From the NCBI GenBank assembly GCA_947040435.1, contig CAMRBL010000013.1, positions 1 through 35,656 on the forward strand: a stretch of 35,656 nt of DNA, given 5' to 3'. Both the position numbers and the translations under genes were made by a program. The stretch comes from an uncultured Rikenellaceae bacterium. Lineage in GTDB: Bacteria; Bacteroidota; Bacteroidia; Bacteroidales; Rikenellaceae. Positions within the stretch are counted from its first letter, which is position 1; every line of letters starts with the position of its first letter. The notes beneath the pieces are model-generated. The model saw only the letters and a program-made list of their open reading frames with translations. It did no database searches and was not told the DNA's origin. Shown piece by piece: positions 28,701-29,792 of this stretch.

Positions 28701-28717
28701 ATTAATATTTTTATAAT

Positions 28718-29491
28718 ATGGATAAGTTAGAACTAAAAGAGTTACTAGACACTTTACACAATAAATATAATGACTCTAGTTTCATTGAGTCTGATCCTAT
28801 ATCTATACCTCATCGCTATGATTTGAAAGAAGATATTGAGATTAGTGGATTTCTGGCCTCAGTTATATCATGGGGAAATAGAAAAGCAATTGTAAATAGT
28901 TGTTGTAGGATGATGGATTTTATGGATAATTCGCCTTATGATTTTACGATTAATGCATCGGATAAAGAGTTAGATTCATTAAGTAGTTTTGTTCATCGAA
29001 CATTTAATGGAGCTGATTTTAGGACATTTATTCTTGCGATAAGGGGTATCTACATGGAGCATGGAGGTATTGGGAATTTATTTGAGCAGAAGTGGCTTGA
29101 GTACGAAGATATGCGTCCAGTACTATCTGACTTTAGAAAGGTATTTTTCGATTTAGATCATGAAAAGCGTAGTGAGAAGCATCTATCATCAATAGATAAG
29201 AAGTCAGCGTGTAAGAGGTTGAATATGTATATTAGGTGGATGGTTAGACGAGATTGTAATGGAGTTGATTTTGGTCTTTGGGATAAGATTCCGATGTCTG
29301 CATTATATATGCCTTTAGATGTTCATACGGCTAACGTTGGTAGGGAGCTAAACTTGCTTACTCGCCCTCAGAATGATTGGAGAGCAGTTGAGGAGCTTAC
29401 TCAGTCATTAAGAGAGTTTTCACCAGAAGATCCAGTAAAATATGATTATTCTCTATTTGGTGCAGGAATAAATAAAGAGTTTAAAATATAA
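28718..29491 (+). CDS. TIGR02757 (DUF2400) family protein, function unknown
   Basis: 257 residues, soluble, with no signal peptide. Recognisable family features are DPISIPHRY near residue 26, EISGFLASVISWGNRKAIV near 42, CKRLNMYIRWMVRRD near 164, IPMSALYMPLDVHTANVGRE near 189 and the C-terminal PEDPVKYDYSLFGAGINKE. The layout, helical with an R-W-M-V-R-R-D motif and a late Asp/His pair, recalls HhH-type DNA repair folds, but activity has not been established to my knowledge. It is the last gene of the coaE operon, 17 bp after lolD. A tandem repeat array begins 7 bp after its stop. Confidence 0.9.
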   Translation: MDKLELKELLDTLHNKYNDSSFIESDPISIPHRYDLKEDIEISGFLASVISWGNRKAIVNSCCRMMDFMDNSPYDFTINASDKELDSLSSFVHRTFNGADFRTFILAIRGIYMEHGGIGNLFEQKWLEYEDMRPVLSDFRKVFFDLDHEKRSEKHLSSIDKKSACKRLNMYIRWMVRRDCNGVDFGLWDKIPMSALYMPLDVHTANVGRELNLLTRPQNDWRAVEELTQSLREFSPEDPVKYDYSLFGAGINKEFKI

Positions 29492-29497
29492 CAAACT

Positions 29498-29724
29498 AAA
29501 AGTTCCCTGCGATCACGCAGTGCGGCCCGCATAGGGCAGTTCCGACAAACAAAATAAAAGTTCTCTGCGACCACGCAGTGCCGCCCGCATAGGGCAGTTC
29601 CGACAAACAAAATAAAAGTTCCCTGCGACCACGCAGTGCCGCCCGCATAGGGCAGTTCCGAAAATAAACTAAAAGTTCTCTGCGATCACGCAGTGCGGCC
29701 CGCATAGGGCAGTTCCGACAAACT
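29498..29724. repeat. Four tandem GC-rich hairpin-forming repeats (57-58-bp unit)
   Basis: Units start at 29498, 29556, 29614 and 29671 (periods 58, 58, 57). Each begins AAAAGTTC(C/T)CTGCG and ends CATAGGGCAGTTCCG; the 43-base core of unit 1 is about 67% G+C in an otherwise AT-rich window. Each core holds the hairpin CTGCG-loop-CGCAG, a second small hairpin TGCGGCCCGCA (weakened to TGCCGCCCGCA in units 2 and 3), and an outer CCCT/AGGG pairing. Units 1 and 4 share one variant pair (GATC, TGCGG) and units 2 and 3 the other (GACC, TGCCG). There are no unique spacers, so this is not a CRISPR array. Function unknown. Confidence 0.92.
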
Positions 29725-29745
29725 ATCACTCCTAACTAACAATAT

Positions 29746-29790
29746 GAAAAAAAAAGAGAGGAAACTATATTTAGTTTTCCTCTCTTTTTT
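29746..29790. terminator. Bidirectional terminator between convergent genes
   Basis: A-run plus GAGAGGAAACTA (left) and TAGTTTTCCTCTC plus T-run (right) form a long stem with one bulged base. With T's on either strand's exit side it can serve both the TIGR02757 gene on the plus strand and the DUF2795 gene, whose stop lies 2 bp away on the minus strand. Confidence 0.88.
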
Positions 29791-29792
29791 AT

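Follow-up and report, generated by a model that had tools for sequence, protein, structure and literature searches.

Two Rikenellaceae genera share a dispersed REP-like repeat that folds as a hairpin plus a pseudoknot

A GC-rich tandem array in a 35,656-nucleotide stretch of DNA from an uncultured Rikenellaceae bacterium (contig CAMRBL010000013.1; the whole stretch is called the window below) is one site of a large dispersed repeat family. The family is REP-like, occurs as far as searched in two Rikenellaceae genera of gut bacteria, and is undescribed in the sources searched. We consider it probable that these repeats are a non-autonomous interspersed family whose folded single strand is moved by an enzyme acting in trans, with arrays arising by slippage or recombination. 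The window's own genome (G000) is a 2.2-Mb draft in 208 contigs, 84.6% complete; it was compared mainly with that of a sister species (G001). Both belong to genus g1, and the second Rikenellaceae genus is referred to as g8. Copies were located with a covariance model of the repeat (R1) and a second model (R2).

As originally predicted, the array lies directly after the stop codon of a DUF2400 gene and ahead of a terminator-like hairpin. Tandem Repeats Finder placed it at 29490-29723 (period 58, 4.1 copies, 92% matches, score 398), bearing out the claim of four tandem units of 57-58 bp. The four units run head-to-tail over 29502-29715, with starts (GTTC) at 29502, 29560, 29618 and 29675 and spacings of 58, 58 and 57. 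The features of the site are as follows.

28718-29491, + strand: upstream gene of the DUF2400 family (PF09674, 2e-82), assigned by domain match
29491-29496, + strand: first copy of the direct repeat ACAAAC, ahead of the array, read from the sequence and recurring at 29718-29723
29502-29542, + strand: core of unit 1 (R1 match 29499-29547, 70.1 bits), with the fold given by covariation: GTTC C, then H1 CTGCG(ATCA)CGCAG at 29507-29520, S1a TGC at 29521-29523, L1 G, S2a GCCC at 29525-29528, S1b GCA at 29529-29531, L3 TA, S2b GGGC at 29534-29537, and AGTTC
29560-29600, + strand: core of unit 2 (R1 match 29557-29605, 73.0 bits), with loop ACCA, L1 C and T before CTGCG
29618-29658, + strand: core of unit 3 (R1 match 29615-29663, 72.2 bits), with loop ACCA, L1 C and C before CTGCG
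29675-29715, + strand: core of unit 4 (R1 match 29672-29720, 70.7 bits), with loop ATCA, L1 G and T before CTGCG
29718-29723, + strand: second copy of ACAAAC, behind the array, read from the sequence
29750-29791, no strand assigned: terminator-like hairpin with a T run, read from the sequence, also found in the sister species and unconnected with the repeat

The linked variants noted earlier were found again in A-B-B-A order, units 1 and 4 carrying GATC with TGCGG and units 2 and 3 GACC with TGCCG, as was the C-to-T change in units 2 and 4 (CTGCG is preceded by C, T, C and T in units 1 to 4). The spacers follow the same order, AACTAAAA preceding units 1 and 4 and AAATAAAA preceding units 2 and 3, and it is therefore whole unit types that are linked, as expected from duplication of units inside the array. 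Both linked variant bases are unpaired, one in the hairpin loop and the other in loop 1 of the pseudoknot, and a test across the family found no linkage between them. The direct repeat ACAAAC is the likely seed of the tandem duplication in the window. On the minus strand an open frame spans the array; coding was rejected, since with a spacing of 58/58/57 the units are not in the same frame. Elsewhere in the window, positions 1284-24378 hold a long series of SusC/SusD-like outer-membrane and lipoprotein-like genes, by a visual reading of the translations alone.

A pattern search of the window's own genome returned 17 matches, while R1 recovered at least 59 copies there and at least 59 in the sister species, as well as 134 matches in 0.67 Mb of chosen loci from two g1 genomes. 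Two complete G001 contigs, together 417 kb, carry 20 intact copies and 30 that are intact or decayed; extrapolation from these 417 kb suggests about 115 intact and about 170 intact-or-decayed copies per sister genome. Decayed copies are common; base counts below refer to a set of 164 copies that have up to five departures from the core. Searched for genome-wide, as the original prediction had advised, the core thus has many intergenic copies in both its own genome and the sister species. Its spread over many loci excludes the single-locus alternative. It also refutes a local replication accident at one locus, to which we give practically no credence: the tandem units are bracketed by ACAAAC, as such an accident would have it, but the same core recurs at dozens of places in the two species, and again in a second genus.

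With R2, a diverged branch was detected in seven g8 genomes, including the two-contig genome G063. The remainder of the 268-genome Rikenellaceae set yielded essentially no matches beyond g1 and g8, and none came from the 294 other genomes sampled across the order. A match in g16, inside a coding region by eye, and single matches in g22 (E about 1e-3 to 1e-5) were taken as chance or unverified. The viral contigs and plasmids searched contained no copies. No Rfam 15 covariance model matched over the window array at gathering score, the matches elsewhere being chance miRNA matches only, and searches of the open-access literature turned up neither a description of the family nor a pseudoknot REP.

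A copy measures approximately 41 nt and comprises GTT(C/G)-N, a 5-bp hairpin (H1) with a four-base loop (AYCA in g1), an H-type pseudoknot and AGTT; the pseudoknot consists of S1 (3-4 bp), L1 (one base), S2 (4 bp) and L3 (2-3 nt). The foot tag is GTTC in 106 of 164 copies and GTTG in 39 of 164, and is of the CTCCG type in g8. An alignment of 57 copies supported H1 (5 bp), S1 (3 bp) and S2 (4 bp), with S1 and S2 interlocked: pairing holds in 98.1% of cells, both sides change in 6 of 12 pairs (30 such cells), and the covariation score is 0.133, as compared with 0.059 shuffled (0/500) and at most 0.086 when slid. The variants of H1 are CTGCG/CGCAG, GTGCG/CGCAC, CCGCG/CGCGG and GTGCC/GGCAC, the last two being g8 forms together with GTGGC/GCCAC. 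S1 occurs as CGC/GCG, TGC/GCA and CTC/GAG, to which g8 adds CGCC/GGCG, GCC/GGC and ACC/GGT; S2 occurs as GCCC/GGGC, GTCC/GGAC, GCCA/TGGC and GCCT/AGGC, to which g8 adds GCGC/GCGC. A descriptor of structure only, with no sequence demand except AGT after S2, gave 136 matches in g8 vs 0.4 in shuffled sequence, and 82 vs 4.6 in g1. The structure is maintained by compensatory change in all three helices and across genera.

The idea of a structured unit therefore stands, the structure being conserved, but the fold is a hairpin plus a pseudoknot and differs from the one proposed. The outer CCCT/AGGG pairing, supposedly kept by a G-U pair, had to be abandoned: its first base varies (A 94, T 41, C 26 and G 3 among 164 copies), and the true partner of GGGC is GCCC inside the second element, where 99.1% of cells pair and compensatory changes are present. 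The lengths of S1 and L3 are coupled, an S1 of 3 bp going with an L3 of 2 nt and an S1 of 4 bp with an L3 of 3 nt. In a pseudoknot of this kind L3 crosses S1, so the coupling would be predicted by the geometry. Minimum-energy folding by itself picks H1 plus an S2 hairpin, and the element may accordingly form two alternating hairpins in place of a simultaneous pseudoknot.

We examined the placement of the 134 copies from the chosen loci of two g1 genomes, which make up about 71 clusters, six overlapping a predicted gene and seven lying at sequence ends. Co-directional gaps hold 36 clusters, convergent gaps 24 and divergent gaps 5, against a background of 134, 49 and 57 of 240 intergenic gaps; divergent promoters are avoided. 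Of the clusters in co-directional gaps, 15 read in the sense direction and 18 in the antisense (p=0.73); among 32 untied cases, 27 have the repeat closer to the stop codon than to the following start. In G063, 66 of 71 copies fall outside larger ORFs, though 79% of that DNA is coding. These data show insertion just after stop codons without regard to orientation, which would be tolerated because coding sequence and promoters are spared.

The absence of an orientation preference and the REP-like placement argue against a strand-specific RNA function. A structured RNA in mRNA 3' regions, which would block 3'-5' decay or attenuate read-through and whose fold would be kept by selection on the transcript, is unlikely in our view, although several observations fit it: the RNA-like H-type pseudoknot with its L3/S1 length coupling, the position of copies just past stop codons, the many orthologous sites kept in both species, and a strand bias in S2. 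G.T and A.C departures number 27 vs 27 in H1, 29 vs 31 in S1 and 30 vs 9 in S2 (p=0.001), thus favoring G.T on the + strand in S2; as one of three tests, on copies that are partly related, this gives only a hint that S2 matters on the + strand. On the other side, antisense copies would show the wrong strand (18 antisense clusters vs 15 sense), the element has no U run and is followed by a separate terminator at the window, and no Rfam family matches. Tandem pseudoknot repeats are similar in form to ToxI (PMC8860590), but a type III toxin-antitoxin RNA array can hardly be entertained for about 70 dispersed loci in both orientations; the genes near the window array encode DUF2400, DUF2795 and a cobalamin adenosyltransferase, and no toxin.

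Comparison with the sister species revealed differences in occupancy at two sites in the window.

29492-29748, + strand: segment present in G000 and missing at the orthologous G001 site, where the stop codon abuts the terminator hairpin (by comparison)
28701-28717, + strand: empty site of 17 bp in the window, at which G001 has a three-copy array of the family

The three-copy array lies between an ABC transporter gene and the DUF2400 gene, one gene from the site of the window array. Syntenic sites are filled in both species in 12 of 16 and 11 of 14 cases, often with copy numbers that differ; the empty ones number 3 and 2. Insertion or loss therefore occurs, but transposition is slow, most orthologous sites being filled in both species. 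The flanks are about 15% diverged, because of which target-site duplications are unreadable, and an insertion cannot in every case be told from a loss. As to other features of a MITE from a DDE transposon, the core is without a terminal inverted repeat and has direct GTTC at both ends. Taken together, these comparisons show dispersal, turnover and presence/absence differences at orthologous sites, and the many intergenic copies, the lack of orientation bias and the empty orthologous sites support the REP/MITE-like option raised in the original prediction.

Local arrays contain duplicated flanking DNA of their own. At one G000 site a GTTCCCTGCG footprint stands in place of a copy present in G001, and this footprint and the ACAAAC brackets of the window array point to slippage between short direct repeats. 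At L139:3111-3122 (G000) only AGTTCCCTGCG remains, and at L116:10985-11025 (G001) there is a full copy; the remnant looks like what a deletion between the element's terminal direct repeats would leave behind.

Arrays, intergenic position and orientation independence would also suit a protein-binding array in duplex DNA, like BIMEs with gyrase, IHF or Pol I, spread by ordinary duplication. We hold this to be improbable: duplex binding has no need for compensatory change in stems as short as S1 and S2, and about 70 loci with empty sites require a mover.

The search for that mover went against the expectation of a RAYT transposase. Y1_Tnp (RAYT, PF01797) had 0 matches in G000, G001 and eight g8 genomes, with positive controls; these genomes are 70-98% complete. 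The absence is weak for the draft G000 alone and stronger for all ten. The family is therefore not half of a standard REP/RAYT pair. Y1_Tnp is present in 5 of 268 Rikenellaceae genomes, none of them element-bearing. The TnpB domain was not found in the element-bearing genomes examined, reverse transcriptase (RVT_1) is absent from the three best examples, G000 (85% complete), G001 and G063, and Y2_Tnp (IS91-type) gave no match, but its control search was also silent. RAYT and TnpB/OMEGA were rejected as partners, as no such gene occurs in the element-bearing genomes examined; reverse transcriptase, and with it a retron, DGR or group II origin, was rejected on the lack of RVT_1 in G000, G001 and G063.

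REP, BIME and REPIN sequences are short, GC-rich, structured intergenic repeats with more than 100 copies per genome, which stand alone, in tandem or as inverted pairs and show both compensatory changes and differences in presence between genomes (PMC2817692, PMC3733652). The family described here is likewise short, high-copy and extragenic, with stem-loops under compensatory change. It differs in having a hairpin plus a pseudoknot, whereas a REP is one imperfect palindrome, and in lacking a GTAG/CGTC tag and, in every element-bearing genome examined, a RAYT. As it has neither the tag nor a RAYT, we do not file it as a REP member; it may work like one. CGTC-tagged REPs have no dedicated transposase and a single stem of 8-9 bp (PMC3733652). 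They resemble our family as REP-like repeats without a known mover, and differ in their CGTC tag and in the single stem in place of a pseudoknot.

The nearest described relatives are repeats of the Bacteroidetes TnpA-REP subclass 2.6 / RAYT group 5, which have 'atypical secondary structures' (PMC6006769). These too are from Bacteroidales, with two hairpins joined by a linker, and with tandem arrays at some loci; a GTT(C/G) foot is present at group-5 loci L242-L245, L255, L257 and L268, and a GCT-type foot at others. Their sequences are different, the 30 loci examined showed no such pseudoknot, and neither g1 nor g8 has the gene. At L242-L271, in other Bacteroidales, group-5 RAYT genes lie between inverted two-hairpin repeats, an example being GTTC-GGGCGGATT-TGC-AATCCGCCC, a linker with TATAA, and GGATT-TGC-AATCC; L254 and L258 hold tandem arrays with units of about 30-35 bp.

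Our family could be a relic of such a system, in which a RAYT-like HUH transposase (perhaps of group 5 / subclass 2.6) was lost while the copies decay and expand locally. The two-hairpin repeats flanking group-5 genes, several with a GTTC/GTTG foot, the tandem arrays at some of these loci, the abundance of decayed copies and the fact that no RAYT remains would all be in keeping with this. We nevertheless rate a relic as quite unlikely: the hairpin-pseudoknot was not found at 30 group-5 RAYT loci, which yielded only one descriptor match, AT-rich and chance-like, and intact species-specific arrays argue that the family was still active once the two species had separated.

In the reading that we prefer, of a folded strand moved in trans, the substrate recognized and moved would be single-stranded, most likely ssDNA exposed at replication and possibly RNA. 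A trans-acting enzyme, which may since have been lost, would recognize and move the folded copy. The pairing of S2 beside AGTT might act like the guide or cleavage-site pairing of REP and IS200/IS605 ends. The latter are similar, by analogy only, in their short hairpin with an adjoining four-base pairing, and differ in that neither TnpA (Y1) nor TnpB occurs in the element-bearing genomes here. Slippage or unequal recombination would then lengthen and shorten the arrays, the short direct repeats involved being ACAAAC around the window array and GTTC-CTGCG within copies. More tentatively, and we would not yet bet on it, the family may be a mobile repeat with an ssDNA (or RNA) pseudoknot signal and a mover other than the known REP transposases, at more than 100 sites per genome in two genera.

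What defines REP-like repeats is a simple hairpin with its tag, together with a RAYT. The family combines REP-like copy number, placement and arrays with a hairpin-plus-pseudoknot fold, and has no RAYT. It makes two questions testable: what enzyme is behind the movement of orphan REP-like repeats, and can ssDNA folded as a pseudoknot serve as a transposition signal? It also explains why GC-rich arrays occur between the genes of these AT-rich genomes, and cautions against taking such arrays for local regulatory RNAs.

Several arrangements of copies were observed besides simple tandem arrays. In G063 (L090-L107, e.g. L107:3419-4347), subtypes A and B alternate in inverted orientation about 130-170 bp apart, forming BIME-like modules with terminator-like inverted repeats in between. 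An inverted pair of elements surrounds an AT-rich segment at the same site in G000 (L016:1504-1678) and G001 (L122:8149-8316), with an extra copy in one of the species. Finally, a longer shared 3' extension (..AACTGTCTCCGACGGGAAACTTTGAAAA..GAAAACT.CGTTTTC..) accompanies the arrays at L144:12200-12590 (G000) and at L119:11150-11350 and L163:8075-8400 (G001), and looks as if another interspersed repeat had been joined to the element.
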